Assembly: GCF_024723825.1 (NCBI RefSeq)
Contig: NZ_JANQBQ010000001.1
Location: 3,348,001 to 3,412,000 of the forward strand
Direction: 5' to 3'
Origin: Romboutsia lituseburensis
Lineage (GTDB): Bacteria > Bacillota > Clostridia > Peptostreptococcales > Peptostreptococcaceae
DNA: 64,000 nt
The notes under the pieces are model-generated. The model had not been told where the DNA came from, did not search any database, and was given only the letters and a program-made list of their open reading frames with translations. The translations under genes and the position numbers were made by a program. Below, in pieces: positions 1 through 54,726 of this stretch (position 1 is its first letter; every line of letters begins with the position of its first letter).

Positions 1-1066
1 ATGGAAATCAATAGATATAATCGAGGAAGAACATCCTTTATATGTAGGTCATCCAGGTATAATGGGTGATAGAGGAGCTAATTATATATTACAAAGTTGT
101 GATTTACTTATAATATTAGGAAGTAGACTAGATCCAAGTATAACTGCATTCAATGAAGCTAATTTTGGTAAAAATGCTAAAAAAGTAATGATTGATATAG
201 ATAGTAATGAAATAAATAAAATGAAAATGGATATTGATGTAAAATCCATATGTGATGTAAAAACATTTATTGAAGAGCTAAATACAAGTATTGAAAAATT
301 AAATACAAATATGGGCATTGATGCAGAATGGTTATCATATTGTAAAAATATTAGAGATAGATATCCTGTAGTTACAGAGTTGCATAAGAATGAAGAAAAA
401 TATGTAAGTGCATATAGTTTTATAGATGAACTATGCAAACAATTGACAGGTGAAGATATAATAGTTCCAGAAAGTTCAGGTGGAGCGGGTGAAATTACAT
501 ATCAAGCATTCAGAATTAAAAAAGGCCAAAAAATGAAAAATGCTGCTGGTCTTGGATCTATGGGATTTGGACTACCATATTCGATAGGGGCTTGCGTTGC
601 TAATGATAGAAAACGAACTATACTTATAAATGGTGATGGAGCATTCCAGCTAAATATTCAAGAGTTAGAAACTGTCTCAAGATTAAAATTACCAATTAAG
701 ATGTTTATATGGAATAATAATGGTTATGCAAGTATAAGGTCTATGCAAAAAAATCTATTTAATGAAAACTATGTTGGCAGTAGTGAGGATAGTGGGCTTA
801 CAATGCCAGATACAAGCAAGGTAGCTAATGCATATAATATAAAAACTTATACAGCAAGAACTAATAAGGAAATGAAGAATCTTTTACCAGAAGTTTTAAA
901 TTATGATGGGCCTGTATTATGTGAACTGATAGTTTCTCCAGAAGAAACAATATCACCAAGAGTAAAGTCTGTAAAATTAGAAAATGGTAAAATGGAATCT
1001 AAACCACTAGAAGATATGTGGCCATTTTTAAGTAAATATGAAATCGAAAATAATATTAAAAATTAA
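1..1066 (+). CDS. TPP-dependent acetolactate-synthase-like enzyme, 5'-truncated (YerE-like candidate)
   Basis: The reading frame is open from base 2, so the true start lies before the window; the first ATG in frame (62) is internal. What remains is the central cofactor domain and the C-terminal thiamine-pyrophosphate (TPP) domain of the acetolactate synthase/pyruvate decarboxylase superfamily. The central domain shows the HPLYVGHPGIMGDRGAN stretch. The TPP and metal site shows GDGAFQLNIQELET followed by WNNNGY. Such enzymes move a two-carbon unit from pyruvate or a similar 2-oxoacid. In sugar clusters a relative, YerE, adds that unit to C4 of a CDP-3,6-dideoxy-4-ketosugar, and an RfbH-type dehydrase that would make such a ketosugar lies at 9608. 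The YerE role is inference; ordinary acetolactate synthase is less likely here because no small subunit or isoleucine/valine pathway gene is visible. Confidence 0.85.
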   Translation, partial: WKSIDIIEEEHPLYVGHPGIMGDRGANYILQSCDLLIILGSRLDPSITAFNEANFGKNAKKVMIDIDSNEINKMKMDIDVKSICDVKTFIEELNTSIEKLNTNMGIDAEWLSYCKNIRDRYPVVTELHKNEEKYVSAYSFIDELCKQLTGEDIIVPESSGGAGEITYQAFRIKKGQKMKNAAGLGSMGFGLPYSIGACVANDRKRTILINGDGAFQLNIQELETVSRLKLPIKMFIWNNNGYASIRSMQKNLFNENYVGSSEDSGLTMPDTSKVANAYNIKTYTARTNKEMKNLLPEVLNYDGPVLCELIVSPEETISPRVKSVKLENGKMESKPLEDMWPFLSKYEIENNIKN

Positions 1067-9589: not shown

Positions 9590-9607
9590 GAATATGGAGA
9601 AATGAAA

Positions 9608-10918
9608 ATGACTGGCAGAAAAAAAATATTAGATAGTGTTAAAGAATTTTATAGTGAAAATAATGGTGTTAAAAAATTTGAACCAAGTAAAACTTATATA
9701 CCTGTTTCAGGGAAAATATTAGATGAAAATGACTTAGTTAATTTGGTTGACTCATCTCTTGATATGTGGCTTACAGCTGGTAGATACTCGGATGAGTTTG
9801 AAAGAGAATTTTCTAGATTTCTAGAAGTGAAGCATTGTAGCTTAGTAAATTCAGGTTCATCTGCAAATTTAGTTGCATTTACAGCTTTAACATCTCATAA
9901 GTTAGGAGAAAGAAGGCTAAAAGATGGTGATGAAGTTATAACTGTAGCTGCTGGATTCCCAACTACTATATCACCTATAATACAAAATGGAATGGTACCT
10001 GTATTTATAGATGTAGACTTAGAAACTTATGATTATAAAGTTGAAGATATAGAAAAAGCTATATCTGAGAAGACCAAGGCTATATTTATGGCACATACAC
10101 TAGGAAATCCATTTAATTTAGACAAAATTATGGAATTAGCAAAAAAATATAATTTATGGGTAATAGAAGATAGTTGTGATGCTTTAGGATCTAAGTATAA
10201 TGGAAAATATACTGGTACAATTGGCCATATAGGAACGTTTAGCTTTTATCCAGCTCATCATATAACTATGGGGGAAGGGGGAGCTGTAGTAACAAATGAT
10301 CCATTATTACATAAATTAATAACTTCAATCAGAGACTGGGGAAGAGATTGTATTTGTCCACCGGGTAAAGATAATGTATGTAATAATAGATTCACTCAAA
10401 AACATGGTGATTTACCGTTAGGTTATGATCATAAATATGTTTATTCTCATTTAGGGTATAATTTAAAAGTGACAGATATGCAAGCTGCTATAGGGGTTTC
10501 TCAACTTAAAAAATTGAATGGATTTATAGAAAAACGAAATGAAAATTTTGAAAAGCTTTATAAAGGGCTAAGTCATTTAGATGAATTTATTATATTGCCA
10601 AAAGCAACGAAAAATAGTGAACCAAGTTGGTTCGGTTTTCCTATAACTTTAAAAGAAAATGATAAATATAATAGAAATGATTTAGTTGAATTTTTAGAAT
10701 TAAGCAAAATAGGTACAAGATTATTATTTGCAGGAAACATTTTAAAACAGCCTGTATTTACAGAAAATAATTATGAATATAAGGTAATAGGTAACTTAGA
10801 AAATACAGATATTATAATGGAAAATACTTTTTGGATAGGTGTTTGGCCAGGGATAACAGATGAATGCATAACATATATAATATATAAATTTAATGAATTT
10901 TTCTCATATAATAAATAA
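9608..10918 (+). CDS. rfbH: RfbH/E1-type CDP-4-keto-6-deoxy-D-glucose 3-dehydrase
   Basis: This PLP/PMP-dependent enzyme of the DegT/DnrJ/StrS fold removes the C3 hydroxyl of CDP-4-keto-6-deoxyglucose, the step committing to 3,6-dideoxyhexoses. Two diagnostic features are visible. The usual PLP lysine is replaced by histidine in FYPAHHITMGEGG (His217/218). The iron-sulphur pattern C-x57-C-x-C-x7-C is exact (Cys190, 248, 250, 258; the last three in CICPPGKDNVC). The ATG at 9608 is better spaced from GGAGA than the one at 9602. CDP-glucose synthesis and 4,6-dehydration genes are not in the window and may lie just upstream. The partner reductase E3 is also not seen. Confidence 0.93.
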   Translation: MTGRKKILDSVKEFYSENNGVKKFEPSKTYIPVSGKILDENDLVNLVDSSLDMWLTAGRYSDEFEREFSRFLEVKHCSLVNSGSSANLVAFTALTSHKLGERRLKDGDEVITVAAGFPTTISPIIQNGMVPVFIDVDLETYDYKVEDIEKAISEKTKAIFMAHTLGNPFNLDKIMELAKKYNLWVIEDSCDALGSKYNGKYTGTIGHIGTFSFYPAHHITMGEGGAVVTNDPLLHKLITSIRDWGRDCICPPGKDNVCNNRFTQKHGDLPLGYDHKYVYSHLGYNLKVTDMQAAIGVSQLKKLNGFIEKRNENFEKLYKGLSHLDEFIILPKATKNSEPSWFGFPITLKENDKYNRNDLVEFLELSKIGTRLLFAGNILKQPVFTENNYEYKVIGNLENTDIIMENTFWIGVWPGITDECITYIIYKFNEFFSYNK

Positions 10919-11071
10919 GTTACATTTAATAAATTAAATATCAAATCAATAGTAATATCTATAAAATTTTATATTTAAATATTTAATGACTGTAAAGAAG
11001 TAATTGTTTTAGAATTGAAGGAAAAAAACAAGTTTATTAAATAAAATGTACTACATATAAGGCGGATGAAT

Positions 11072-12904
11072 ATGGATATTATAAATGAAATACAAAGATG
11101 TATAATTGAAAATGATATAGAGCTTGCATACAAAACTATAGTTGAAAATGAAGATGAGCTTTTAAACAGTGCGCAATATTGGAATTTAAGAGGTATTCTA
11201 TGTTATAAAATTCAAGAATATGATGCAGCTATAAAATGTTATATAAAATCAATAAATATAAAAAATGATTATTTAGATTCTTATTTTAACTTAGTATATA
11301 TTTATAAAATTACTAGAGAAAAGATGAAAGCTGCACTATATTCAGGGCTAGCTTTAAAGTATACTGATGATATAAATTTTGAAAATGAATTAATTGATAT
11401 ATTTAATGATGAATTATTGTATTGTGAGTATATCAACTTAATAAAACAAGTAAAGAATAATAATAACATAAATATTAAAAACTTAAGTTTTATAAAATAT
11501 ATATCAACTATGTTTGAAGATATAGATGAAAATTACATAAGTTATATTAACGATAAAAATATAGATAAATTATGGGCGTTTGTAAATGAAGATTATTTAT
11601 TAACAAATAAAGAAATTTTAAGTATATCAGATTATATAAAAATAAAAGAAAATTTACAACTTAACATAATGATAAAGTACGATGTGAATTATATAAATAA
11701 AACTAGAGACATTGCATCAAAAGGTGTAGATTGTTGTTTTATTATGGTAGAAAACAATAGGACTTGGGACTTAGTAGAAATTGATCAACAAGATATGAGA
11801 CATTTGAAAAATAAAGATTATAAAAAAACTGTAACATTAAATAAATTTAATGCAGCAGATTCAAATGTATATGCTCTTATCAATTATATGCCACAAAAAT
11901 ATAAAGAAAAATATAAATTAAATATTATAAATGGAGTAGATGTTTTTAGTATAGAAAATGTTGTGAAGGTTCCTTTACTATCATCTGTAACTGTATCAGG
12001 ATTTAATACATTTACAAGCTATCCTAAGTTTACTTATAATATTGAAGTGGGTCATGGGGAAGTAGGTTTTAAAGGTTGTGGATTAATGGATAAGAAAAAT
12101 AAACAATTTTCATTTACACCAGAAGAATACACAAAAATAGATAAAATATGTACAATATCTACAATGTCTATGATACTACTGAGTTCTTTTGCAGCCGTTC
12201 CAGAAAATAAATACGAAATAACTGGAAATCCTAGAACTGATACTCTAGTGTTATCAGATGGTAAAATAAACTTAGAAAGATTACTAAAAATACCATTGAA
12301 TAATAAAAAAGTTGTATTCAATATGCCTACATTCTATATACATGAAAACACTGGATTAGTTAGTGGTTCAAAAGAACTTAATGATAGTATAAAAATAAAA
12401 AATTTCGATTATAAAAAATTCAATGAATTTTTAATTGATAATGAAATAATTTTCATATCAAAGGTACATCATGGAGAAGAAAGAACGGTTACTTCTAAAG
12501 TAAAGAACCGCCATTTAGATAATATGATATTTATATCAAATGATGATTTAGACAAAGCGGAGTTAGATTTATATGAAATTTTAAATGCAGCAGATATGCT
12601 GATTACAGATTATTCTAGTATATACGGGGATTTCTTATTTATGGATAAACCCACTATATTTGTAAATACAGATATGGAAAAATATGAAGAAGAAAGAGGT
12701 ATAATTCTGCAACCGTATGATTTTTGGGCAGCTGGACCTAAAGTTACTAATCAAGATGATTTAAGTAAAGAGATACTTAAGTGTATTAATGATTCTAACT
12801 ATTATAAGAAAGAACGTAATACTATCAGAGATATTTTTTATTATCATAAAGATGATAAAGCTACTATGAGAGTATGGGATACTATAGATAGAGTGCTAAG
12901 TTAA
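11072..12904 (+). CDS. TPR-linked CDP-glycerol:glycerophosphotransferase (TagF-like) family protein
   Basis: About 610 residues. The first ~120 form tetratricopeptide-like helices (YWNLRGILCYKIQEYDAAIK). The C-terminal half is a TagF/TarF-type transferase with GNPRTD near residue 386, HHGEE, and the hallmark DYSS-x3-DF...KP motif near residue 512. The family moves a phospho-alcohol from a CDP carrier to an acceptor, forming a phosphodiester. A complete choline kinase/transporter/cytidylyltransferase set lies downstream and no LicD transferase is visible, so this is the best candidate to place the phospho-group on the glycan. A related protein is encoded in the C. difficile type A flagellin glycan locus (from memory). 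The ATG at 11072 has AAGGCGG at proper spacing; 11066 is too close. Confidence 0.85.
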   Translation: MDIINEIQRCIIENDIELAYKTIVENEDELLNSAQYWNLRGILCYKIQEYDAAIKCYIKSINIKNDYLDSYFNLVYIYKITREKMKAALYSGLALKYTDDINFENELIDIFNDELLYCEYINLIKQVKNNNNINIKNLSFIKYISTMFEDIDENYISYINDKNIDKLWAFVNEDYLLTNKEILSISDYIKIKENLQLNIMIKYDVNYINKTRDIASKGVDCCFIMVENNRTWDLVEIDQQDMRHLKNKDYKKTVTLNKFNAADSNVYALINYMPQKYKEKYKLNIINGVDVFSIENVVKVPLLSSVTVSGFNTFTSYPKFTYNIEVGHGEVGFKGCGLMDKKNKQFSFTPEEYTKIDKICTISTMSMILLSSFAAVPENKYEITGNPRTDTLVLSDGKINLERLLKIPLNNKKVVFNMPTFYIHENTGLVSGSKELNDSIKIKNFDYKKFNEFLIDNEIIFISKVHHGEERTVTSKVKNRHLDNMIFISNDDLDKAELDLYEILNAADMLITDYSSIYGDFLFMDKPTIFVNTDMEKYEEERGIILQPYDFWAAGPKVTNQDDLSKEILKCINDSNYYKKERNTIRDIFYYHKDDKATMRVWDTIDRVLS

Positions 12905-12935
12905 ATATAATAATATGTGCAAAGGATACAGTTAG

Positions 12936-14411
12936 ATGAAAAATAAGTGTAATTTATATAAATATATAGTTGGACAAGAGCTTATCAATAAAATTGTAAG
13001 TATATTAGGTAAAGATGATATAACTATAGAAATAGAAATAGATATAATTAATATATTGGCAGATTTTGTACAAAATAATACTCAGTATAGTACGATGGAT
13101 TCATTTAATAAACTAGTAGATGCAATAGTGGATATAATTGAAAGTTTTAATAACGAAAGTATAAATGCGTATAATGATAAAAAATATAGATTAAGTACAC
13201 TTATACAATTATTGAATGAATTTTATAAAAATATAAATAGTATAAAAATCAATTTATATTTTTATGGGAAAGATAAATATAATATAAAAGATAGGTGCTT
13301 TAATAAAAAATTTATACATATAGAACATATTAATGACTATATACAAAAAAATAAAGATAATGAAAGTAATATTATTAATGTTTTAATAGTAAGTGAAGAA
13401 ACAATGCATTGTAATATAGATTTTAGCTTATATTTTGATGAAGTGATTTATTATGATAAGCTAATGAACAATATGTTTGAAATAACTGAGAAAATATATT
13501 ATGAAAACTATGACTACAATTATTTATCGCAATCTATAGAAAATTGTGAAAATGAAAATTTAAATACATTGATAGTTGGAAATTCATATCCTTTAACAGG
13601 GATAGATTGTAAGTTACTATCATGTAACTCTGTAAGTTTAGCGCTGTCTAGTCAAGATTTATATTATTCTTATAAATTGGCTAAAAAAATTATAGTTAAG
13701 AATAAAAATATTAAAAATTGTGTAATAGGTGTTGGATATTATTTAGTTAATCACGATTTGTCTAAGTGTAAAAGTGATTACTCTAAAAACTTAGTGAAAA
13801 ATATATATTATCCAATACTAAAAGACAAACATAATTCTAATAACGTAGAAGATGTAAATTTATTGTACTTAAAAGATGCGTTAAAAGATGAAGTAATAGA
13901 GTATATATTTAATTTAGAATTTTTAGATTATCATTTTAGAAATTTAATATATAGAGAAAATAACGGATATTTTAATAAAAATTGGACAAGAGAAAATAAT
14001 AGTATATTAAGAGGTGTTAAGTTAAGTTTGATTAGTGATGATGAAAAGTATAGAATAGGAGAGCTTAGAGCTAATCAACATAATGACTTATCAAGATATA
14101 CTGATACATCAAAAGAATATAATAGTATATTTGATGAATTTGTATTCTTTTTAAAAGAAAATAATATAGAACCTATAATAGTTGTATTTCCAAGTACCAA
14201 GTACTATACAAAATTTATAAATAAAATATATGAAAATGAATTTTATAATATTATAAGTAGGTTAAATGAGAAATATGGAATCAAATTAGTTGATTTTACA
14301 AAAATAAATATATTTGAAGAAGATGATTTTATAGATTTTGACCATATGAGCGAACAAGGATGCAAAAAAATAACACTATTATTAAGTGATATTTTAGATA
14401 ATAAGATATAA
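12936..14411 (+). CDS. SGNH/DltD-like protein, function unknown
   Basis: A 491-residue protein without an obvious signal peptide. Residues 1-200 are low-complexity and AT-biased, with no recognised domain. The second half has features of the SGNH hydrolase fold: LIVGNSYPLTGID as a possible nucleophile block (Gly-Asn-Ser), IIVVFPSTKYY, and a C-terminal FIDFDHMSEQGCKKI that could supply the Asp and His. Related folds act as O-acyltransferases or esterases on polysaccharides. Assignment is by motif reading only. It lies between the TagF-like gene and licA, so it may finish or edit the same glycan. Confidence 0.55.
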   Translation: MKNKCNLYKYIVGQELINKIVSILGKDDITIEIEIDIINILADFVQNNTQYSTMDSFNKLVDAIVDIIESFNNESINAYNDKKYRLSTLIQLLNEFYKNINSIKINLYFYGKDKYNIKDRCFNKKFIHIEHINDYIQKNKDNESNIINVLIVSEETMHCNIDFSLYFDEVIYYDKLMNNMFEITEKIYYENYDYNYLSQSIENCENENLNTLIVGNSYPLTGIDCKLLSCNSVSLALSSQDLYYSYKLAKKIIVKNKNIKNCVIGVGYYLVNHDLSKCKSDYSKNLVKNIYYPILKDKHNSNNVEDVNLLYLKDALKDEVIEYIFNLEFLDYHFRNLIYRENNGYFNKNWTRENNSILRGVKLSLISDDEKYRIGELRANQHNDLSRYTDTSKEYNSIFDEFVFFLKENNIEPIIVVFPSTKYYTKFINKIYENEFYNIISRLNEKYGIKLVDFTKINIFEEDDFIDFDHMSEQGCKKITLLLSDILDNKI

Positions 14412-14440
14412 CTATATAGATAAGTATAGATAAGACACGT

Positions 14441-14490
14441 AGTAAGGTCAATAGTGGTAGAAATGTAATTTCTAAACTATTGACTTTACT
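14441..14490 (+). terminator. Long two-part hairpin between the SGNH gene and licA
   Basis: Bases 14441-14455 pair with 14476-14490 over 15 positions (one G-U pair). Inside the loop a second 7-bp stem forms (14458-14464 with 14468-14474). No T-tract follows, so it is not a classical terminator. It could be an RNA processing or stability element, an attenuator, or a small mobile-element relic. It separates licABC from the upstream genes. Confidence 0.5.
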
Positions 14491-14568
14491 ATGTAAGATG
14501 AAAGCTATTTATTTTAGTTGTAAATTTTTACGGGTGTATCTAAAAGGTGAGTACTATGAGGTGATTTA

Positions 14569-15465
14569 GTGAAAAAAAAATATCAAGACAATAAAATTAA
14601 TAGAATAAAAGATACACTATCAGAAGTGTTAGGTTTAAGTAATCATGATATATATAGTATAGATCCTATTGGAGGTATGACTAATAAAAACTTTAAAGTT
14701 AATATTAAAAATGAAAATTATATATTAAGAATACCTGGTAATGGAACGAAAGAAATGATTAGTAGATATAGTGAAAAATATAACAATTTAATTGTAAATA
14801 AGTTAGAAATAGATACTAATATGTTGTATTTTAATGAAGAAAATGGTTTAAAGGTATCTAAATATATTAATAATGCTGAAACAATTACTCCTAAAACTGC
14901 TAAAAGAGAAGATAATATGAAGCTAATAACTAATATATTAAAAAAGCTTCATAATTCCAACGTTAAATTTAATAATGAATTTGATGTGTTTAGCAAAATA
15001 GAGGAGTATGAAATTTTATTAAAAAAATATAATGGTAAGAACTTTGATGATTACACATTAGTAAAAGGTAAAGTCACAAAATTAAAACAAATACTTGAAC
15101 AAATAGGTGTAGAAAGTGTACCGTGTCATAATGATACTGTTCCTGAAAATTTTGTAAAGGATAATGAAAGATTGTACTTAGTTGACTGGGAGTATTCAGG
15201 AATGAATGATCCAATGTGGGATTTAGCAGCACATTCTTTAGAGAGTGGTTTCTTAGAATCTGAAGAAGAGCTATTTTTAAGTTTATATTTTGAAGGAAGA
15301 ATAGAAGATAGATATAAAAAAAAAATACTTATATATAAGATTTGCCAGGATTTTTTATGGAGTATTTGGACAAATATTAAAGAAGCTAAAGGTGACAATT
15401 TTGGGACCTATGGAGAATATAGATACAATAGAGCTAAAATTAATTTAAAAAAAATAACTAACTAG
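14569..15465 (+). CDS. licA: LicA-type choline/ethanolamine kinase
   Basis: A 298-residue aminoglycoside phosphotransferase-fold kinase matching the LicA branch. It has GGMTNKNF in the nucleotide-binding lobe, the Brenner motif CHNDTVPENF (catalytic Asp, near residue 187) and VDWEYSGMNDPMWDLA (metal-binding Asp, near residue 205). LicA uses ATP to make phosphocholine, or phosphoethanolamine in relatives. It starts with GTG, preceded by GAGGTGAT. It is followed after two bases by the ribosome binding site of a LicB-like transporter and then LicC; this lic gene order is the main support for choline as substrate. The substrate itself is not proven by sequence. Confidence 0.88.
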   Translation: MKKKYQDNKINRIKDTLSEVLGLSNHDIYSIDPIGGMTNKNFKVNIKNENYILRIPGNGTKEMISRYSEKYNNLIVNKLEIDTNMLYFNEENGLKVSKYINNAETITPKTAKREDNMKLITNILKKLHNSNVKFNNEFDVFSKIEEYEILLKKYNGKNFDDYTLVKGKVTKLKQILEQIGVESVPCHNDTVPENFVKDNERLYLVDWEYSGMNDPMWDLAAHSLESGFLESEEELFLSLYFEGRIEDRYKKKILIYKICQDFLWSIWTNIKEAKGDNFGTYGEYRYNRAKINLKKITN

Positions 15466-15485
15466 ATTTGGAGTGTATAGTAAAT

Positions 15486-16415
15486 ATGATTAGCAGGAGT
15501 AAGGGATTAACTTTAGGCATAATATCAGGTATGCTATGGGGATTAGATACTGTTTTAACAGGTATAATTCTTAACAAGAGTTCCTTTGTAGAAACTCAAA
15601 CGGCTATATTTTTAGCTCCATTTATAAGTTCTTTCCTGCATGATATGTTTTCTAGTTTATGGATGATGGTATATATGTCAGCTACTAGACAGCTACCACA
15701 GATAGTCGAATCAATTAAGACTAGAAGTGGAAAGTTTATATGTATTGCAGCTATATTTGGTGGTCCTATAGGAACGGCATCATACTTATTAGCTGTTAAA
15801 TATATAGGTGTAGGATATACCGCAAGCATATCTTCAATATACCCAGCTATAGGATCATTTTGGGCATATTTATTTCTAAAAGAGAAATTAAATAAGAATG
15901 CATTTATAGGGTTATCTATAATCATGCTTTCTGTAATAATATTAGGATATTCATCTGAAAAAATAAGTGGAGATAATTACTTATTAGGGTTTTCATTGGC
16001 ACTAGTATGTGTATTAGGATGGTCTTTAGAGAGTATAATTTGCGCATATGGAATGAAGGCTAATGAAGTTAGTCCATCTCAAGCACTTCAAATAAGACAA
16101 TTAGTATCGACATTATTCTATGGTATAATAATACATATATTAGGTGGAATAGAATTAATTAGTACGGTTACAGTTATATTTACAAATATTTCGGGATGGA
16201 TTTGTTTTATTGCATTAGCGGGAACTGCTTCGTATATGTTTTATTATACATCAATAGATTCGATAGGACCGGTAAAGGCAACTGTATTAAATATAACGTA
16301 TTCTATATGGGCTATAATCTTTAATATATTTATTTTTGATAGTCCTGTTACTTTAAGATTAGTTATATGCAGCGTACTTATAATAATAGGGTCCATTATG
16401 GTTTTAAAAAATTAG
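15486..16415 (+). CDS. licB: LicB-like choline importer (DMT/EamA family)
   Basis: About 309 residues with ten predicted membrane helices and two EamA-type repeats (GIISGMLWGLDTVLTG at the start; GGPIGTASYLLAVKYIG and GTASYMFYYTSIDSIG as the paired GxxG-type helices). The drug/metabolite transporter family includes LicB, the choline permease of phosphocholine loci. Its position between licA and licC supports uptake of choline or a similar amino-alcohol. The ATG at 15486 is preceded by TTGGAGTG; the in-frame TTG at 15468 lies within that site and is rejected. Confidence 0.82.
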   Translation: MISRSKGLTLGIISGMLWGLDTVLTGIILNKSSFVETQTAIFLAPFISSFLHDMFSSLWMMVYMSATRQLPQIVESIKTRSGKFICIAAIFGGPIGTASYLLAVKYIGVGYTASISSIYPAIGSFWAYLFLKEKLNKNAFIGLSIIMLSVIILGYSSEKISGDNYLLGFSLALVCVLGWSLESIICAYGMKANEVSPSQALQIRQLVSTLFYGIIIHILGGIELISTVTVIFTNISGWICFIALAGTASYMFYYTSIDSIGPVKATVLNITYSIWAIIFNIFIFDSPVTLRLVICSVLIIIGSIMVLKN

Positions 16416-16433
16416 TTTAAAGGAGTATTTTTT

Positions 16434-17132
16434 ATGAGAGCAATACTTTTAGCTGCAGGAATGGGTACAAGATTGAGGCCCTTAACACTTACTACTCCGA
16501 AGTCTTTAGTGGAAATAAATGGACAGCCTATGTTAGAGAGACAAATTAGTTTTTTAAAAGACATAGGAGTAAATGAAATAATAGTTGTGGTAGGTTATTT
16601 AAGGGAGAAGTTTGAATACTTAAAAGATAAGTATGATGTCAAGCTTATTTATAATGAGAAGTTTAATGTTTATAACAATATATATACTATGTACTTAGTT
16701 AGAGAATATTTGGGAGATAGCTATGTAATAGATGCTGATGTTTATTTGTATAAAAATTTTTTAGATAAGGATATAAGTAAATCTACTTATTTTAGTGGTT
16801 ATAAATATGGGTTTAAAAATGAATGGATATTAGAATTTGATGATAATTACAATGTAAAAGATATAGTTATAGGAGATGGAGAAGGGTACATATTATCTGG
16901 CATATCATACTGGAATAAAAAGGATGCTAGTATTATTGTTAATGAGTTAGAAAAAGTTATAGAATTAGATAAATTTTTTGATTTATATTGGGATCATATT
17001 GTCAAAGATAATTTATTAAAATTAGATATACAAATTAAAAGAATAGATAGTTATGATTCATTTGAAATTGATTCTTTAAGTGAATTAAACTCTTTAAATA
17101 AGTTTTTATACAATAAACAGCATAGCATATAA
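16434..17132 (+). CDS. licC: LicC-type CTP:phosphocholine cytidylyltransferase
   Basis: A 232-residue nucleotidyltransferase of the length expected for LicC. The signature at residues 4-24 includes LAAGMGTRLRP and TPKSLV; DADVYL is the metal-binding segment. It would activate phosphocholine to CDP-choline for transfer to a glycan. AAAGGAGTATTTTTT precedes the ATG. It ends the plus-strand glycan operon and faces a convergent glycosyltransferase gene. A sugar-1-phosphate nucleotidyltransferase is the alternative, but the short length and the licA/licB neighbours favour LicC. Confidence 0.85.
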   Translation: MRAILLAAGMGTRLRPLTLTTPKSLVEINGQPMLERQISFLKDIGVNEIIVVVGYLREKFEYLKDKYDVKLIYNEKFNVYNNIYTMYLVREYLGDSYVIDADVYLYKNFLDKDISKSTYFSGYKYGFKNEWILEFDDNYNVKDIVIGDGEGYILSGISYWNKKDASIIVNELEKVIELDKFFDLYWDHIVKDNLLKLDIQIKRIDSYDSFEIDSLSELNSLNKFLYNKQHSI

Positions 17133-17143
17133 AGAGTATTGAA

Positions 17144-17180
17144 AGCCAATAGTAAAAAAAGGATTTTTAATCTATTGGCT
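17144..17180. terminator. Inverted repeat between convergent genes
   Basis: AGCCAATAG at 17144-17152 pairs with CTATTGGCT at 17172-17180, with an A-rich and T-rich loop. It lies between licC and the minus-strand glycosyltransferase and is likely a bidirectional terminator, although the T-tract is weak. Confidence 0.5.
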
Positions 17181-17205
17181 ACTACTAAATTTAAGGAATT
17201 TATAT

Positions 17206-18276
17206 TTATTTAAATCGATTAAGAGCTTCTAAAGCACGTTTATAATTATATTTAGCGGATAATTCATAATACATTATAGCATTATCCTTATTGTTTATAA
17301 GTTCATAAAACAAACCTAAATTAAATGCAGCTAAATAACTTCCAGTACCTTGAACACTATTATAAGAAAAACTATTTCCAATTTCTAATGCACCTAAATA
17401 AGAGAGCTCAATATTTTCAAAATAATTTATATATTTTTCTGGATTTGATGAAACTAATTCGGTAAAAAACACACCACATACAAAGTAAAAGTCAGAAGAA
17501 TTTTTTAATAAATCAAAATTATCATTAATAATTTCAAGTCCTTTTTCAAATTCATTTGTTTTAATAAGCGTATAGATATAAGTAATTAAGCCATCTGCTA
17601 CAAATTCCTCAGTATCAGGACTAAAGCAATTATAAAAACTGTTAAAATATGTTGAGGCTTCAGAGTACATTTTATTAACATAATAAGTTCTTGCTGTTTG
17701 ATAAAGTAAATATGAATCATTAGGTTTTATTTTTAATTCATCTAATAATATAGATATATTTCTATCAAATTTATTAGTATTTAAATAGCCATTATGTTCT
17801 AATATTATATCAACTATTTTCCTAGGAAAATCACTTTTTAGCTGTTCGTGTATAGCACCTTCAAACCAAACTCCTTTAGGAGTTAATCTAGATATAAAAG
17901 ATTCTGAATTTTTAATTTCACCATCTTGTTCAAAAGAACTTACTATTTTTACTTGACCTATAGTACTATCATTATAGCTTATAAAATATCTTATGCTATC
18001 TAAATCTATATTAGCTATATACTCATCAGCATCTAAAATTAAGTTCCAGTCACTATTTGAATTGCTTAGAGCGAAATTTCTAGCTTTTGAAAAATCATTA
18101 TCCCATTTATAATCAAAAATTTGTGCATTAAATTCTAATGCAATTTCTTTTGTTTTATCTGTGGAACCAGTATCTACAATTACTATTTCATTGACTATAT
18201 CCTTAACAGATTCTAAGCATCTTCGAAGGTTACTTTCTTCATTTTTTACAATCATAACTAAGCTTAAGCTTTTCAT
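17206..18276 (-). CDS. TPR-containing GT2 glycosyltransferase (SunS-like)
   Basis: A 356-residue glycosyltransferase on the minus strand. The N-terminal GT-A domain shows LVMIVKNEESNLRRCLESV, VDTGSTDKT and the DADEY (DxD) metal site. The C-terminal ~150 residues are TPR-like helices (SYLLYQTARTYYVNKMYSEA, and a repeat near the end). This architecture occurs in protein glycosyltransferases such as SunS and in flagellin glycosylation loci. AAGGGGGAA lies before the ATG. The gene has its own promoter at 18310-18341, overlapped by a Spo0A-like box, so it is regulated apart from the plus-strand glycan operon. Role in flagellin modification is inferred from position. Confidence 0.8.
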   Translation of the reverse strand: MKSLSLVMIVKNEESNLRRCLESVKDIVNEIVIVDTGSTDKTKEIALEFNAQIFDYKWDNDFSKARNFALSNSNSDWNLILDADEYIANIDLDSIRYFISYNDSTIGQVKIVSSFEQDGEIKNSESFISRLTPKGVWFEGAIHEQLKSDFPRKIVDIILEHNGYLNTNKFDRNISILLDELKIKPNDSYLLYQTARTYYVNKMYSEASTYFNSFYNCFSPDTEEFVADGLITYIYTLIKTNEFEKGLEIINDNFDLLKNSSDFYFVCGVFFTELVSSNPEKYINYFENIELSYLGALEIGNSFSYNSVQGTGSYLAAFNLGLFYELINNKDNAIMYYELSAKYNYKRALEALNRFK

Positions 18277-18309
18277 TGAGAGTTCCCCCTTTTATTAAAA
18301 TATAGATTA

Positions 18310-18341
18310 ATTATAGCAAAGACTATATTTTTATTCGACAA
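18310..18341 (-). promoter_or_regulatory. Promoter of the minus-strand GT2 with a Spo0A-like box in the -35 region
   Basis: Read on the minus strand, TATAAT (18310-18315) carries the extended -10 TG. TTGTCGAA (18334-18341) sits 18 bases upstream, where a -35 would be. TGTCGAA is the 0A box, and Spo0A-activated sigma-A promoters place boxes just there. A single 7-mer can occur by chance in a window this size, so regulation by Spo0A is a hypothesis. Confidence 0.5.
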
Positions 18342-18410
18342 ATTTTTTATAACTTATATAAAATAGTTATAGTTTTATTATTTTGATTTTAGTATTAAAC
18401 TCTCAAAAAT

Positions 18411-18438
18411 TAAAGTTGATATAAATAAATCCGTAAAA
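18411..18438 (+). promoter_or_regulatory. Sigma-28 (FliA/SigD)-like promoter
   Basis: TAAA at 18411-18414, a 16-base spacer, and CCGTAAAA at 18431-18438. The spacing is identical to that of the five CCGTATA promoters in the chemotaxis region; the -10 differs at one position. It lies 54 bases before the coiled-coil gene. Confidence 0.55.
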
Positions 18439-18492
18439 TAATAAGTGATTAAATACTAAAAAAATATAAATTTAAATATTAGGAGTATAAAT

Positions 18493-19143
18493 ATGAATAT
18501 AGATAAAAATAAAATTTATCAAGTGACATTATATGCAAATATAAGTCCTAAATTATTAGATCCAAACAATCAATCTAACAAAGAGAAACTATTTAAAAAA
18601 GATCAAAAAGTATCTAACAACACAAATAACAGAATAAAAATGAAATCAAAGGTAATAAATAGTGACCAAAGACGATTACAGGATAAAATGACACTAATTC
18701 AATCCCAAGAAGTACATATAGAAGAAGTAGAGAAAACTTTAAACTATGCAAAATCAAAATATCATCAAGAAAATAACAATTTAAATAAAGAATCTAGAAA
18801 TATAAAAATTAAAATAAAGCAATTAACTAAAAAAGCAAAAGAATTAGAAAGTAAATCTGAGTCCAATCAAAATCAAAAAGATCAGTATATAGAGGATAAA
18901 GAACAAATCATATCATTAATAAATGATACACTTAATAAGATAAAAAAAGTAAAACAAAATCTTTCTCATCAAAAAACAAAGCTTATATCATTAGAAGAAT
19001 ATCTCAAAAAAAGTGAATCAAAGTTAGATAATACTAAAGACCAAATAGATTACATAAAAGAAGAAATAATATTAAATCCTTTAGATTTTATATTTATAGA
19101 AGGTAACATGGAAACTGGTTTAATTATAAACATACTAATTTAA
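18493..19143 (+). CDS. Coiled-coil protein of unknown function, likely in the flagellar regulon
   Basis: A 216-residue, very lysine/asparagine-rich protein. Residues ~55-190 are predicted long coiled coil, and the ends are short and non-helical. I recognise no family. It lacks a signal peptide and membrane segments. AGGAGTATAA precedes the ATG. A sigma-28-like promoter upstream and its place directly before the flgB leader suggest it is made with late flagellar and chemotaxis genes. Possible roles are an export chaperone, filament-associated protein or regulator, none shown by sequence. Confidence 0.65.
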   Translation: MNIDKNKIYQVTLYANISPKLLDPNNQSNKEKLFKKDQKVSNNTNNRIKMKSKVINSDQRRLQDKMTLIQSQEVHIEEVEKTLNYAKSKYHQENNNLNKESRNIKIKIKQLTKKAKELESKSESNQNQKDQYIEDKEQIISLINDTLNKIKKVKQNLSHQKTKLISLEEYLKKSESKLDNTKDQIDYIKEEIILNPLDFIFIEGNMETGLIINILI

Positions 19144-19288
19144 AATATTTAAACAAAAATAAACTTTATTTTATAAAGCTAATTACAATATATAAATTAA
19201 AAAATATACCATGGATTTATATAAAAATATTTTTAGGTATTAGTATGGGAAAAAATACATGAAAAAAAAAGAAAATCAGCATAAAACC

Positions 19289-19317
19289 TTGATAAAAGTC
19301 GAAATATATTATACTAT
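19289..19317 (+). promoter_or_regulatory. Sigma-A-like promoter of the flagellar operon
   Basis: TTGATA (19289-19294), a 17-base spacer and TACTAT (19312-19317), about 70 bases before the c-di-GMP aptamer. Start of transcription is predicted near 19324. Confidence 0.5.
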
Positions 19318-19387
19318 AGTAGTAGGAAAAGTTTACACTGTAGTATGAGAAAAAAGTGTGAGTAATTATGATTAAATAAAAATTTAA

Positions 19388-19463
19388 TAGGCAAACCTAG
19401 AGAAATTTAGGGACGCAAAACTATAGGGGCTAAGGTTTTTAAAACTATGCCAGCCAGCTGCCG
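19388..19463 (+). ncRNA. Cyclic di-GMP-I (GEMM-I) riboswitch aptamer
   Basis: The conserved GEMM-I core is readable in order: GGCAAACC, a GAAA tetraloop hairpin (CCTAGA-GAAA-TTTAGG), GGGACGCAAA, GGGGCTAAGG (tetraloop receptor side), CAGCCAGCTGCCG. The outer helix pairs GGCA at 19390-19393 with TGCC at 19459-19462. It lies in the flgB leader and is followed by a terminator, as in C. difficile, where c-di-GMP binding stops flagellar transcription. An OFF switch is therefore expected. Confidence 0.92.
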
Positions 19464-19508
19464 AAGAGTTAATAAACTTTTTGTTATCATTGCTGATAAA
19501 AAATTTAC

Positions 19509-19532
19509 ACTCTTTAATAAGAGTATTTTTTT
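19509..19532 (+). terminator. Riboswitch-controlled intrinsic terminator
   Basis: ACTCTT (19509-19514), loop TAAT, AAGAGT (19519-19524), then ATTTTTTT. An identical AAGAGT lies directly after the aptamer (19464-19469) and could pair with the same ACTCTT instead, giving a simple anti-terminator. Ligand-stabilised aptamer folding would then decide which pairing forms. Confidence 0.75.
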
Positions 19533-19635
19533 ATGTAAAAAAACACAAAAATAAAATTATAAAGTCTAAAAAAATTACATTGTTTTAATAAGAAACTTTA
19601 TCGTTTGAAATGAATTGTATAAAAATACAAATAGA

Positions 19636-19652
19636 TGTCGAAGAGTGTCGAA
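19636..19652 (+). promoter_or_regulatory. Tandem Spo0A-like boxes (TGTCGAA x2)
   Basis: TGTCGAA occurs at 19636-19642 and again at 19646-19652, exactly one helical turn apart on the same strand. This fits the 0A-box consensus TGNCGAA and cooperative dimer binding. It lies downstream of the riboswitch terminator and upstream of flgB. Confidence 0.55.
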
Positions 19653-19861
19653 AAATAACGAACGAAAAAGGTCAGAAATATCGTAAAATGTAGAATAAGT
19701 TTTAAAAAAAGTGTATAATGTTGTGTAGTGGAAATAAAACAAAAAATAAACAATATTAGACAATTTTATAGACATATAAAAGAAAGAATGGAATTGGATT
19801 TTATAACTTTGTTTAGTTTGTATTTAGAAAGTTAGCGATGTTTAAAATTACTAAGTAATTC

Positions 19862-19887
19862 AAACTACTCTTTTGGGTAGTTTTTTT
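19862..19887 (+). terminator. Second terminator hairpin directly upstream of flgB
   Basis: A 9-bp stem (19862-19870 with 19875-19883), a TTTT loop and a run of seven Ts. It ends 29 bases before the flgB start and just before the flgB ribosome binding site. Any flagellar transcript must read through it, so it is probably an attenuator. Confidence 0.7.
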
Positions 19888-19916
19888 AAATTAGATTGAA
19901 TAAAAGGAGGTTGATT

Positions 19917-20240
19917 ATGAACATATATGGATTAATGAAAATGGGCTTAGATGCAACTGAGCTAAGAGGTAGAGTTATTGCAAATAATATAACAAATATA
20001 AATACACCAGGATACAAAAGAAAATATGTTACATTTGAAGATACTTTAAAAGGTAAGATGGACAATGCTAAGATAGAAGTTAAAACAGATGAAGGGTCTA
20101 TAATGAGAGAAGATAAGAATAATGTTGACTTAGAAAATGAAAAAGTTAATCAAGCTGCTACAACTCTTCAGTATAATGCATTAGTTAGTTTAACTAATAC
20201 TAAAATAGCAATGACAAAAAGTGTAATATCAGGGAGGTAA
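19917..20240 (+). CDS. flgB: Flagellar basal-body rod protein FlgB
   Basis: A 107-residue proximal rod protein and the first gene of the early flagellar operon. I start it at ATG 19917, which has AAAGGAGG at good spacing; the in-frame TTG at 19896 is upstream of that site. The N-terminal flagellar rod motif is present (LRGRVIANNITNINTPGYKRK), and the C-terminal helix pairs with it in the assembled rod. Exported by the flagellar type III apparatus without a cleavable signal. Length is at the short end for FlgB. Confidence 0.95.
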   Translation: MNIYGLMKMGLDATELRGRVIANNITNINTPGYKRKYVTFEDTLKGKMDNAKIEVKTDEGSIMREDKNNVDLENEKVNQAATTLQYNALVSLTNTKIAMTKSVISGR

Positions 20241-20244
20241 TTAA

Positions 20245-20649
20245 ATGAGTGTTTTTAGCGGTATGAGAATTAGCGCAAGTGGTTTATCGGCTGAAAGAAT
20301 GAGAATGGATGTTATATCATCTAATGTAGCTAATGTAAAAACAACTAGAACAGAAGAGGGTGGAGCATATAGACGTAAAGTAGCTAGTTTTGAGGAAAAT
20401 TATGATGAAAAACTAGGTATGTTAGGGGTTAAGACAGTAGCAATAGAAGAAGATAAATCTCCACTTAGAAAACTATATGAGCCTAATCATCCGGATGCGG
20501 ATGAACAAGGTTACGTAGAGTATCCTAATGTAGATTTATTAGTTGAAATGTCAGATTTAATATCTGCATCTAGAGCTTACGAATCAAATATAGATACATT
20601 AAATGCTCAAAAAGGTATGATATCGAAAGCTTTAGAAATAGGAAGATAA
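20245..20649 (+). CDS. flgC: Flagellar basal-body rod protein FlgC
   Basis: A 134-residue rod protein with the N-terminal pattern [16 protein letters not shown] and the typical FlgC C-terminus ([20 protein letters not shown], then [15 protein letters not shown]). Starts four bases after flgB, with GGGAGG upstream. Rod subunit exported by the type III system, assembled distal to FliE and FlgB. Confidence 0.96.
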
Positions 20650-20667
20650 TTTTAAAGAGGTGATGGT

Positions 20668-20991
20668 ATGCAAGCTATAAATAGTATAGGGATGAACTCA
20701 GATATATTTGCAAATAGTATAAAAAATAATCCTATAACTGCTGAAAAAACAGTGGAAGAAAAAAGTTCTAAATTAAAATTTGATGATGTTATAAAAGAGG
20801 CTGTAAATAAAGTTAATGACAGTCAAGTTAATGCAAATAACAGTATAGAAAGTCTTATAAAAGGTGAGGACATAACAATGCATGATGTTATGTTATCTGT
20901 ACAAGAATCTCAAATGTCAATGCAACTTATGCTAGAAGTTAGAAATAAATTATTTGATGCTTATCAAGAGCTCAATAGAGTACAATTGTAG
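20668..20991 (+). CDS. fliE: Flagellar hook-basal body protein FliE
   Basis: A 107-residue adaptor between the MS ring and the rod. The C-terminal half carries the FliE pattern (DITMHDVMLSVQESQMSMQL, then EVRNKLFDAYQELNRVQL). The strong ribosome binding site AAAGAGGTG precedes it. Position between flgC and fliF is the usual Firmicute order. Confidence 0.95.
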   Translation: MQAINSIGMNSDIFANSIKNNPITAEKTVEEKSSKLKFDDVIKEAVNKVNDSQVNANNSIESLIKGEDITMHDVMLSVQESQMSMQLMLEVRNKLFDAYQELNRVQL

Positions 20992-42297: not shown

Positions 42298-44028
42298 ATG
42301 AAAAACTTAAAAATAGGTAAGAAGTTAGGTATATCATTTGTCATCTTATTGATGCTTGCTGCATTTGGTAATCTATATTCTATATCTAAATTAAAACAAG
42401 CAAGTGGATTAAATCAGGAATTATTTGATGGACCATATGTGGTAACAACAGAATCAATGGGAGTACGTAGAGATTTAGTTTCTATAGGTAGAAATCTTTC
42501 AAATATGATACTTAGAGATAATTATCAAGAATTTTATAGCTCAGTTAAAAAAGATTTTGAAAGTGTAGATCAAAGAATTAATACTATTAGAAATAGTTTC
42601 ACAGGAGATAAAACATTAATTAATGATCTTGATGATACAATGAAAGAACTAAATGCTCAAGCCGATATAATATATGGATTTGTAGCAAAAGGTGACCGCG
42701 AAGGTGCTAAAAGTATGACTGAAAAAGGTGGTGTATATTGGTCAATATATGATAAATGTGTTGAAGAGTCTATAAAATTATATGATACTTCATCAAATGC
42801 TGGAGTTGAATTTAATAATAATGTACATAAGACTGTTACAAGATCAGTGTTTGTAGCTATTGTAGTGAGTATATCTACTATAATTGCAGGTATAGCTATA
42901 TGTGTATATGTTACAAAGAGCTTAAAAGACCCTATTCAAGAACTAGAAATAGCGGCAAATAAAATGGTACAAGGTGATTTTAATATAGAAATCAATTATG
43001 AATCAGAAGATGAGTTAGGTGTATTATCAAGCAGTATGCGTAATGTATGTAACAAAACAAAAGAAGTTATAGATGATACAGTTCGTGTATTAGAAGAAGT
43101 TGCATCAGGGAACTTTGATGTAGAAACAGAATCAGAATATATAGGTGTATTTAAAGATATTGAAGATTCTGTAGAAAAAATAACTGTTGATTTAAGTGAA
43201 ACAATGTCACAAATAAATGTAGCATCAGAAGAAGTTGGAGCTGCATCAGATCAAGTGGCAAGTGGATCACAAATGTTATCTCAAGGAGCAACAGAACAAG
43301 CAAGCTCAATACAAGAATTATCAGCAACTATAATGGAAATATCAGAAAAAATTAAAGATACAGCAGGTAATGCTCAACAAGCTAATGTTTTAACATTAAG
43401 TGCAGGTAAAGATGTAGAAGATGGAAATGAGCAAATGAAGCAAATGGTAAAAGCTATGGAAGAAATATCATTTACATCAAATGAAATAGGACGAATAATA
43501 AAAACAATAGATGATATAGCGTTCCAAACAAATATATTAGCATTAAATGCAGCTGTAGAAGCAGCAAGAGCAGGTAATGCTGGTAAAGGATTTGCAGTAG
43601 TAGCAGATGAAGTAAGAAACTTAGCAGCTAAATCAGCAGAGGCCGCAAAAAATACATCTACTCTTATAGAAAATTCTATAAAGGCAGTAGATAATGGAAC
43701 TACTATTGTAGATAATACAGCTCAGTCTTTACAAAAAATAATACATACAACAAGTCAAACAATTAAAATAGTTGATGATATAGCTAAAGCGTCGGAAGAA
43801 CAAGCCAGTGCTATAGCTCAAGTAACATTAGGTGTAGAACAAATATCGGCAGTAGTACAAACAAACTCAGCAACATCAGAGGAAAGTGCAGCAGCAAGTG
43901 AAGAACTAAGTGGACAAGCTCAAATGTTAAAATCACTTATAGAAAACTTTAAATTAAAAGATGATAGAAATGGTTATAAATCTATAACTTTTGATTCTGA
44001 TTTAAATGACTATTTGGCTAAAAATTAA
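42298..44028 (+). CDS. Methyl-accepting chemotaxis protein 1
   Basis: A 576-residue transducer. TM1 is at ~11-30, followed by an extracytoplasmic four-helix-bundle sensor (~31-185), TM2 (~187-208), HAMP (~209-262: [15 protein letters not shown]) and a signalling hairpin with the conserved tip ([20 protein letters not shown], near 397-416). The tail ends [16 protein letters not shown]. The cytoplasmic half is almost identical, even at the DNA level, to four other transducers here; the sensor half is not. The ligand is unknown. GGGAGG upstream; a hairpin terminator follows. Confidence 0.96.
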
Positions 44029-48677: not shown

Positions 48678-48846
48678 AAAATACATGATACATTTTGTTA
48701 AAATATGTAAAAAAACGATTACCTAGGAATTGGTGTTAAAGCGCACAGTTATTTTAAAAATACGTAAAAAATATTACAGATTTTATATGGAATAGTTAGC
48801 TAATATGCTATTTAGTAAAAATAATCAAAGTACGGGGAGGCATTAT

Positions 48847-50574
48847 ATGAAAAATTGTAAAATAGGTAAAAAGTTAGGAATATGTTTTGTTATTTTACTA
48901 ATGATTACAGCTTTTGCAAATGGAAAAGCACTATATGATTTAAAAAAAGCAGGTAAAATGAGTCATGACTTATTTAGAGGTCCATATGTATCAACAACAG
49001 AGACTATAGGGATTCGTATGGATTTAGTAGCAGTAGGAAGGTATCTTGGTAATGCAATAATGGAAAAAAACCTTGCTGAATACAAGGCTATGACTATGAA
49101 AGAATTTGATAGAATATCAGGTAGATTAAATAACATAAGAACATCTTTTAACGGGGATGCGACAATGATTGATAGTCTTGGAAATTCAGTTAATAACTTA
49201 AGACAAGAATGTGAAAATGTATTTAATGTCATAGCACAAGGTAATTATGAATATGCAATACAAATTACTGAAAGAAACACTCCATATTTTAATGCATATA
49301 ATAAGTGTGTAGAAGATGCAAATCATCTTTATGAAGATTCTCAAAAATATGGTGAACAATTTGATGCAGGAGTAGCTTCAACGGTATCAAAATCATGGGT
49401 TATATGTTTAACTCTTAATATACTTAGTATATTATCAGGTATTTTTATATGTATATATATTACAAAGAGATTGAAAGATCCAATAGAAGAAATTGAAATT
49501 GCAGCTAATAAAATGTCTGAAGGTGATTTTGATATTAACATTACTTATGAATCAGAAGATGAATTAGGTAATTTATCTAATAGTATGGGGGATATGAGTG
49601 GAAAAATTAATGCTATTATTAAGGATACTGTTAGAGTTTTAGATGAAGTTTCAAAAGGGAACTTTAATGTAGAAACTGAGGCTGAGTATATTGGTGTATT
49701 TAAATATATAGAAGAATCTATACAAAAGATAACAAATGATTTAAGTGAAACAATGTCGCAAATAAATGTAGCATCAGAAGAAGTAGGAGCTGCATCAGAC
49801 CAAGTTGCAAGTGGATCACAAATGTTATCACAAGGAGCAACAGAACAAGCAAGTTCAATACAAGAATTATCAGCAACTATTATCTCAATATCAGATAAAA
49901 TTAAAAATACTGCAAAAAATGCAGCAGAGGCAAATAGTTTAACATTAAGTGCAGGGCGCGAAGTAAAAGAAGGAAATACTCAAATGAAACAAATGGTAAA
50001 TGCTATGGAAGAAATATCATTTACATCAAATGAAATAGGAAGAATAATAAAGACAATAGATGATATAGCGTTCCAAACAAATATACTAGCATTAAATGCA
50101 GCAGTAGAAGCAGCAAGAGCAGGAAGTGCAGGTAAAGGGTTTGCAGTAGTAGCAGATGAAGTAAGAAACTTAGCAGCAAAATCAGCAGAAGCAGCTAAAA
50201 ACACTGCAACGCTTATAGAAAATTCAATAAAAGCAGTAGATAATGGAACTGAGATTGTAAATCATACAGCACAGTCTTTACAAAAAATAATAGAAACAAC
50301 TAATAAAACAACAGATGTAGTTAATGAGATAGCTAGAGAATCAGAAGAACAAGCAAATGCAATAGCTGAGGTAACATTAGGAGTAGAACAAATATCAGCA
50401 GTAGTACAAACAAACTCAGCAACATCAGAAGAAAGTGCAGCAGCAAGTGAAGAATTAAGCGGACAAGCTCAAATGCTTAAGTCACTTATAGATAAGTTTG
50501 AAATAAAGGGGAATTATGATATTAAAAAATCTATAAGTTTTGAAGACAAAGAAATGAGTAGTTTTTTTAATTAA
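48847..50574 (+). CDS. Methyl-accepting chemotaxis protein 2
   Basis: A 575-residue transducer with the same plan as transducer 1: TM1 (~10-28), four-helix-bundle sensor, TM2 (~186-208), HAMP ([16 protein letters not shown]), signalling hairpin and tail [16 protein letters not shown] start it at ATG 48847 (GGGGAGG upstream); the frame is open 14 codons further but without a ribosome binding site. The sensor half differs from the other copies, so a different stimulus is likely. A hairpin terminator follows. Confidence 0.96.
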
Positions 50575-50592
50575 AAAGCCAAAATAGCTCAT

Positions 50593-50621
50593 AAAAATGG
50601 AAGCTACAAGCTTCCATTTTT
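50593..50621 (+). terminator. Terminator of transducer gene 2
   Basis: AAAAATGGAAGCT / AGCTTCCATTTTT hairpin with T-tract. Confidence 0.85.
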
Positions 50622-50748
50622 AAACATAAATTTTAATTAGATTTATTAATATAAAAAATGTAATTAAATTGATAGGAGGGAGCGTTATAACCTAAATAAA
50701 CTAAAACTGTTTATAAAATAAAGGAATAAATTTAAGGGGAGAGTTTAT

Positions 50749-52476: not shown

Positions 52477-52488
52477 GATTCAAATAAT

Positions 52489-52523
52489 AAAAAAGTAGGA
52501 GCTTTAAGGCTTCTACTTTTTTT
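52489..52523 (+). terminator. Terminator of transducer gene 3
   Basis: AAAAAGTAGGAGC / GCTTCTACTTTTTTT hairpin with a T-tract. Confidence 0.85.
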
Positions 52524-52614
52524 GTATTAGATAATAGCAAGATTTTCTAAGCAAAATATATTTTATAAATTAGAGTCTATAATAAAAATTAACAAAAAAT
52601 AAATAAATAAAATC

Positions 52615-52642
52615 TAAAGTGAAAAAAAAATAATCCGTATAT
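52615..52642 (+). promoter_or_regulatory. Sigma-28-like promoter of transducer gene 4
   Basis: TAAA (52615-52618), 16-base A-rich spacer, CCGTATAT (52635-52642). Confidence 0.75.
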
Positions 52643-54699: not shown

Positions 54700-54726
54700 A
54701 AGATTTTATGAGGATAACTGTTAATT

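Follow-up and report, generated by a model that had tools for sequence, protein, structure and literature searches.

A licABC choline module beside a TagF-like transferase in a flagellar glycan island of Romboutsia lituseburensis: a candidate source of phosphocholine on flagellin

The stretch of DNA analyzed here (the window) comprises 64,000 nucleotides of the Romboutsia lituseburensis genome (assembly GCF_024723825.1, contig NZ_JANQBQ010000001.1, positions 3,348,001 to 3,412,000), a genome of 3.93 Mb in 6 contigs that is 99.99% complete. Our subject is five genes of a glycan-gene island that is bordered upstream (locus L001) by a late flagellar operon together with flagellin and a glycosyltransferase of the FGT type and GT2-TPR (tetratricopeptide repeat) kind, and downstream by flgB-flgC-fliE-fliF-fliG. 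Standing after the RfbH gene in island order, they encode a TagF-like protein, an SGNH-like protein, LicA, LicB and LicC (Table 1). An earlier reading made from the DNA letters without database searches, hereafter the sequence-only reading, had described them as a lic-ordered set behind TPR-TagF and SGNH-like genes near the early flagellar operon, and the listing of open reading frames (ORFs) bears this out: all five are full length and co-oriented, with flgB starting at 19896. No terminator-like site was found among the five genes. Their presence, identities and context are not due to chance.

Table 1. Features of the island and of its flagellar border, in window coordinates
Feature	Coordinates	Strand	Basis
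TPR + TagF-type (Glyphos_transf) phosphotransferase, candidate CDP-choline:glycan phosphocholine transferase	11066..12904	+	PF04464 1.3e-39, TPR matches
SGNH-fold DltD-like protein, constant partner of the TagF-like gene	12936..14411	+	Model, conserved motifs, pair conservation
Long imperfect hairpin before licA	14437..14494	+	Outer stem ~19 bp
LicA-type choline kinase	14569..15465	+	PDB 4r77 3.4e-62; PF01633
LicB-type DMT/EamA choline permease	15468..16415	+	PDB 7b0k LicB 5.4e-37; starts 2 bp past licA stop
LicC-type CTP:phosphocholine cytidylyltransferase	16434..17132	+	PDB 1jyk 3.7e-73, 49% identity
RfbH-type CDP-4-keto-6-deoxyglucose 3-dehydrase, island sugar pathway	9602..10918	+	PRK15407 RfbH, 728 bits over cut-off; L001 upstream carries rfbF/rfbG-like genes
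GT2-TPR glycosyltransferase, island end, convergent with licC	17206..18276	-	PF00535; broken homologue in G055 flagellar island
Cyclic di-GMP-I riboswitch upstream of flgB	19380-19465		Rfam match; as known in C. difficile
flgB, flgC, fliE: early flagellar operon start, right island border	19896..20991	+	ORFs; riboswitch upstream

Sequence comparison shows genuine homology between the LicA, LicB and LicC of the window and their pneumococcal counterparts. The best Protein Data Bank (PDB) matches are the pneumococcal choline kinase 4r77 for LicA (214 bits), the LicB structure 7b0k for LicB (131 bits) and 1jyk for LicC (250 bits over full length, with 49% identity across 227 residues and no gaps), in keeping with the LicA-type kinase, LicB-like transporter and LicC-type cytidylyltransferase proposed from the letters. 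Published ligand residues were mapped onto LicA and LicC through the 4r77 and 1jyk alignments. LicC keeps D107, W136, Y190 and D218, ligand residues of 1JYL, and the only altered residue among those checked is R129, replaced by K. It also keeps D105, D192 and E216 (PMC6697681), and LicA keeps all 11 of the catalytic and choline-pocket residues that we compared (T29, D176, V178, N181, D194, E196, Y197, E213, W251, W254 and Y268; PMC4364537), with E180 likewise conserved. Synthesis of CDP-choline by LicABC is strongly supported, about as certain as sequence permits. Choline is a likelier substrate than ethanolamine, since pneumococcal LicC favors phosphocholine over phosphoethanolamine by ~2700-fold (PMC6697681).

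Two other specificities were considered for LicC. A preference for a sugar-1-phosphate, which the sequence-only reading had named as fatal to its proposal, is ruled out by scores of 250 bits over full length against pneumococcal LicC and at most 57 bits against sugar nucleotidyltransferases. A phosphonate specificity like that of PntC is not favored, given the small Asp at D105 and D192 where Tde-PntC has Glu, although Ari-PntC indicates that this box alone is not decisive.

LicA, LicB and LicC are clearly homologous to their counterparts in the Lic-1 (licABCD) pathway of Haemophilus, Streptococcus and Neisseria, and the gene order is identical. In contrast to that pathway, the genome lacks LicD, the genes are linked to flagella and the proposed transferase is of the TagF type. 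Phase-variation repeats at the locus are weak and short at most, and none resembles the tetranucleotide tracts of licA.

Which protein could use the CDP-choline? A search of the whole source genome for LicD (PF04991) gave no matches, while the same search was positive in 12 of 71 relatives; a hidden LicD elsewhere is rejected. Glyphos_transf proteins number one in the entire genome, and it is the protein encoded from 11066, consistent with the earlier suggestion that a TagF-like transferase stands in place of LicD. Of the two proteins with a PF01066 domain, one is PgsA, which adjoins recA, and the other is nearest to archaetidylinositol phosphate synthase, a type found in 17 of 21 sampled relatives regardless of LicABC, leaving no CDP-alcohol phosphatidyltransferase tied to LicABC as a candidate phosphatidylcholine synthase. 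The genome contains no TagD/TarD, which rules out a CDP-glycerol donor made by TagD. With LicD and TagD absent, both PF01066 proteins accounted for and a single Glyphos_transf protein, the TagF-like protein is the sole recognized member of the CDP-phospho-alcohol:glycan transferase class and thus, by elimination and not by proof, the candidate user of CDP-choline.

The TagF-like protein matches PF04464 at 136.7 bits, against a gathering cut-off of 22.1, and has TPRs in addition. Although its ORF opens at 11066, alignment with the starts of orthologues points to the second Met, at 11072, as the probable real start, which is also where the sequence-only reading placed it. Its motifs GH330, SKVHH466-469 and ITDYSS513-518 are invariant in orthologues. 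The Glyphos_transf domain and the conserved His and DYSS motifs are shared with the teichoic acid polymerases TagF, TarF and TarL and the capsule polymerase Cps3D; however, the window protein scores 61 bits against the TarF model, far under its cut-off of 550, has a TPR N-terminus and belongs to a genome without TagD. In a class-wide search, the sample outside the family gave only distant, longer proteins. The protein would transfer a phospho-alcohol from a CDP donor, and since the expected donor has no free hydroxyl, the product would be a cap and not a polymer.

The 491-residue SGNH-like protein has no Pfam match. Its AlphaFold model, with a predicted local distance difference test (pLDDT) score of 75.6, gives DltD (E 7e-5) and PatB as top structural matches. 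With these proteins it shares the SGNH fold of the model and GNS and DxxH-like motifs, but it differs in the missing Pfam match, a large helical N-terminus and the absence, by eye, of a clear signal peptide. The motifs VGNS214-217 and DFxD464-467/DH469-470 are invariant in orthologues. Since its gene goes with every examined close orthologue (at least 56% identity) of the TagF-like gene, the two proteins probably act together, and the simplest guess is that the SGNH-like protein is an O-acyltransferase or esterase acting on the same glycan. The hairpin that follows its gene is unusually stable (z -4.3; none of 200 shuffles was equally stable) and lacks a T run, hence is not terminator-like. 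It has no Rfam match to a riboswitch or known RNA and no counterpart in the related loci compared, and may be the join of two modules or a control element for licABC.

The flagellar interval holds differing gene sets in related genomes. In a sister species of the same genus (G058), with 80-99% identity to the window in most flagellar proteins, the same interval holds a set like CD0241, CD0242, CD0243 and CD0244 of Clostridioides difficile, with a LicC-like CD0242 and a TagF-like CD0244, and LicABC and LicD are located away from it. In Faecalimicrobium dakarense and Romboutsia timonensis the interval contains FGT, TagF, a 206-residue methyltransferase and SGNH, and LicABC is absent from the genome. 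Clostridium cadaveris (L058:10001-15385) has FGT, TagF and SGNH followed by DUF2284, a nucleotidyltransferase that shares 32% identity with LicC, and an SDR protein, a set predicted to supply some other CDP-activated donor. The interval of [Eubacterium] tenue (L068:6527-11373) encodes a CD0244-like protein, a HisC/CobD-like aminotransferase, a LicC-like nucleotidyltransferase, LicD and a methyltransferase, and is predicted to specify another phospho-amino-alcohol decoration of flagellin, with LicD. These differences suggest that the site carries interchangeable phospho-alcohol modules; by gene content, the window version is a TagF-SGNH core plus a LicABC module.

A decayed flagellar island in another genome (G052, L076:1376-6067) contains remnants of two adjoining cassettes, namely a tenue-type transferase, aminotransferase and LicD, and a type A HAD and nucleotidyltransferase; it looks like a cassette replacement caught underway. 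In G011, whose genome lacks LicA and LicD, a LicC-like gene (55% identical; L051:9591-12391) adjoins a gene for a 685-residue TPR protein that by eye resembles an LtaS/sulfatase-type enzyme.

The closest parallel is with the type A glycan of C. difficile (CD0240-CD0244) and the b-type glycan of Pseudomonas aeruginosa PAO1 (PA1088-PA1091), whose islands likewise follow flagellin and FGT genes and encode a LicC-like cytidylyltransferase and a TagF-like transferase. Mutants show that CD0244 is required for addition of phospho-N-methylthreonine to the N-acetylglucosamine of C. difficile flagellin, and the proposed donor is CDP-threonine (PMC10714395); in P. aeruginosa an equivalent scheme gives flagellin N,N-dimethylthreonine (PMC11833859). 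For those systems a flagellin-sugar phosphodiester made through a CDP-activated amino-alcohol is a model (PMC10714395, PMC11833859), and the window locus would share that chemistry. The FGT glycosyltransferase downstream of flagellin (CD0240-like; L001:13109-15352) is 44-46% identical to proteins of G005 and the sister species that precede type A cassettes. The C. difficile analogy drawn in the sequence-only reading is apt, as in the sister genome a type A cassette occupies the corresponding site. However, the donor module of the window is LicABC, for choline, instead of CD0241, CD0242 and CD0243, for N-methyl-threonine; none of the ORFs from 10918 to 19896 in the window encodes a protein of the CD0241 (HAD phosphotransferase), CD0242 or CD0243 type. 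The window TagF-like protein also has TPRs and an SGNH partner, and it belongs to another subfamily than CD0244, to which its C-terminal domain is homologous (hhalign probability 89%, 21% identity, 166 columns). CD0242 was formerly likened to a phosphocholine cytidylyltransferase though no phosphocholine is present (PMC4441256). This warning does not transfer to the window LicC, because the latter matches LicC over its full length, has LicA and LicB alongside and shares no more than 27% identity with the CD0242-like protein across 112 residues.

We consider it reasonably probable that the locus is a decoration module for the flagellin glycan, in which the TagF-like protein places phosphocholine from LicABC-made CDP-choline on that glycan. 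We favor this explanation because LicABC match pneumococcal choline proteins and keep their ligand residues in a genome with no LicD and one Glyphos_transf protein; because the genes sit between flagellin/FGT and flgB without a terminator-like site among them; because the sister species has a type A cassette in the same place and CD0244 is needed for the phosphodiester in C. difficile; and because the nearest LicA and LicC in the comparison come from a LicD-less genome, G030, that also has the TagF-SGNH pair. LicB would bring in choline, LicA would phosphorylate it and LicC would form CDP-choline, steps that are well supported by sequence. The TagF-like protein may then move phosphocholine from CDP-choline, with release of CMP, onto a sugar that FGT-type glycosyltransferases would have placed on flagellin in the cytoplasm, and the DltD-like SGNH protein could conceivably acylate or trim the same glycan. 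Flagella would then bear phosphocholine in phosphodiester linkage, a counterpart of the type A N-methylthreonine-phosphate that is reached via LicABC. Phosphodiester decoration of flagellin is already known as a type of system; what would be new here is the LicABC choline module as the source of donor. The sequence-only reading had put either phosphocholine or phosphoethanolamine on flagellin through the TagF-like protein. Of this, CDP-choline synthesis, the absence of LicD and the single TagF candidate stand, whereas use of CDP-choline by the TagF-like protein is something that we only infer; of the two groups, phosphocholine is retained, on the kept LicA and LicC residues and the LicC preference, and phosphoethanolamine is not.

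The distribution of these genes bears on the proposal in both directions. LicA and LicC occur together in 10 of the 71 genomes of the family comparison, which includes the Peptostreptococcaceae R. timonensis, Asaccharospora irregularis, F. dakarense, Metaclostridioides mangenotii and [E.] tenue. LicD is also present in 7 of the 10, and in 5 of these 7 it lies ~4-10 kb from licC; LicA and LicC without LicD are found in the source genome of the window, in G030 and in G068, a draft. G030, which like the window genome is well assembled and has LicABC but no LicD, has the TagF-SGNH pair too, its LicA and LicC cluster with those of the window (support ~0.98), and in these two genomes LicA stands alone, without the helix-turn-helix (HTH)-nucleotidyltransferase domain that is fused to the kinase in the rest. 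The pair is found in G000, G012, G023, G029, G030 and G050 (57-65% identity) and is broken in G003; TagF-like orthologues with an SGNH partner show 56-65% identity.

Several observations count against the proposal. The pair occurs without LicABC in at least four other genomes of the family (G003, G012, G023 and G050). LicABC is likewise missing where the pair lies in the flagellar islands of Faecalimicrobium, R. timonensis and Asaccharospora (broken), as well as in that of C. cadaveris, where it stands beside a different nucleotidyltransferase and SDR; in Metaclostridioides it stands alone. A long distance separates the pair from LicABC in G029 and in G030, at least 1.1 Mb in the latter. Association of the pair with LicABC in the absence of LicD reaches P ~0.02 with the window genome but is not significant (P ~0.17) once that genome is excluded, so that the co-occurrence is suggestive at most. 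Within the window, a 157-bp gap with the strong hairpin separates the SGNH gene from licA, and the structure model of the TagF-like protein (pLDDT 52) is too poor for reading the donor site. The main caution is that the TagF-SGNH core has no fixed link to choline.

In one alternative explanation, the TagF-SGNH pair adds a different phospho-alcohol to the flagellin glycan, as its occurrence in genomes without LicABC demands there, and LicABC is a recently inserted neighbor whose CDP-choline is used by an unrecognized transferase. The pair is conserved in genomes without LicA or LicC and has the other partners described above in F. dakarense, R. timonensis and C. cadaveris, the licABC genes of G030 (where licB reads as two ORFs) lie close to mobile-element-like genes of the VapE and polymerase types and have no glycan genes in their vicinity, and the hairpin and gap mark the SGNH-licA junction. 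However, no other cytidylyltransferase gene adjoins the pair in the window, the genome has no TagD/TarD, and no other transferase that uses CDP-choline is recognized in it; we regard this alternative as unlikely. Less likely again is that phosphocholine goes to a cell-wall or capsular polymer, with the flagellar location incidental. Known Lic-1 products are all glycoconjugates, such as lipooligosaccharide (LOS) and teichoic acid (PMC10434233), and most relatives with LicABC keep it close to LicD and far from flagellar genes, but the window genes lie inside the interval from flagellin-FGT to flgB, where the sister species and C. difficile have cassettes that modify flagellin. That the transferred group is phosphoethanolamine seems very improbable: although the kinase family includes ethanolamine kinases, all aromatic choline-box residues checked in LicA and LicC are kept, pneumococcal LicC discriminates strongly, and LicB is present. 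Slightly weaker still is a role for CDP-choline in membrane phosphatidylcholine synthesis, since the enzyme that would invite it, the second CDP-alcohol phosphatidyltransferase, looks like an archaetidylinositol-phosphate synthase, and almost every relative has one whether or not it carries LicABC.

We see about as much reason to accept as to doubt a broader extension of our preferred explanation, that TagF-SGNH is the core of a family of flagellin phosphodiester decorations whose donor module is swapped between species, with the flagellum carrying a host-mimicking group. The donor modules would be LicABC here, nucleotidyltransferase-SDR-DUF2284 in C. cadaveris and an unknown one linked to a methyltransferase in Faecalimicrobium and Romboutsia.

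Ahead of the five genes, the island has genes like rfbF and rfbG and encodes NeuB, a HAD-SIS fusion, a thiamine pyrophosphate (TPP) enzyme, radical SAM, FkbM methyltransferases, GT2 and RfbH. The TPP enzyme and the RfbF-, RfbG- and RfbH-type genes (window 62-1066 and 9602-10918, and L001:15510-17371) suggest that the flagellar glycan includes a CDP-linked sugar of the branched or 3,6-dideoxy type, and NeuB and the HAD-SIS fusion suggest a nonulosonic-type sugar as well. Farther along the window is a duplicated chemotaxis cluster (42298-44028, 48805-56998 and 44639-46837, 57088-59238) with five chemoreceptor genes that are long and resemble one another, two CheA genes that are almost identical, and duplicated CheC/CheW/CheY sets.

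C-reactive protein, natural antibodies and the platelet-activating factor receptor recognize phosphocholine, a group that LOS, teichoic acids and the pili of Neisseria are known to carry. Full-text search of the open-access literature, which does not cover subscription papers, found no report of phosphocholine on flagella, and a survey of phosphorylcholine pathways makes no mention of flagella (PMC10434233). If our proposal is correct, choline uptake would be linked to the chemistry of the filament and the TagF family would gain a LicD-like role. The interest lies mainly in direct testability, since commercial CDP-choline would then allow a test of the CDP-alcohol model proposed for the type A flagellin of C. 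difficile and the b-type flagellin of P. aeruginosa. If donor modules are indeed swapped, clostridial flagella would carry assorted small charged caps, phosphocholine among them.

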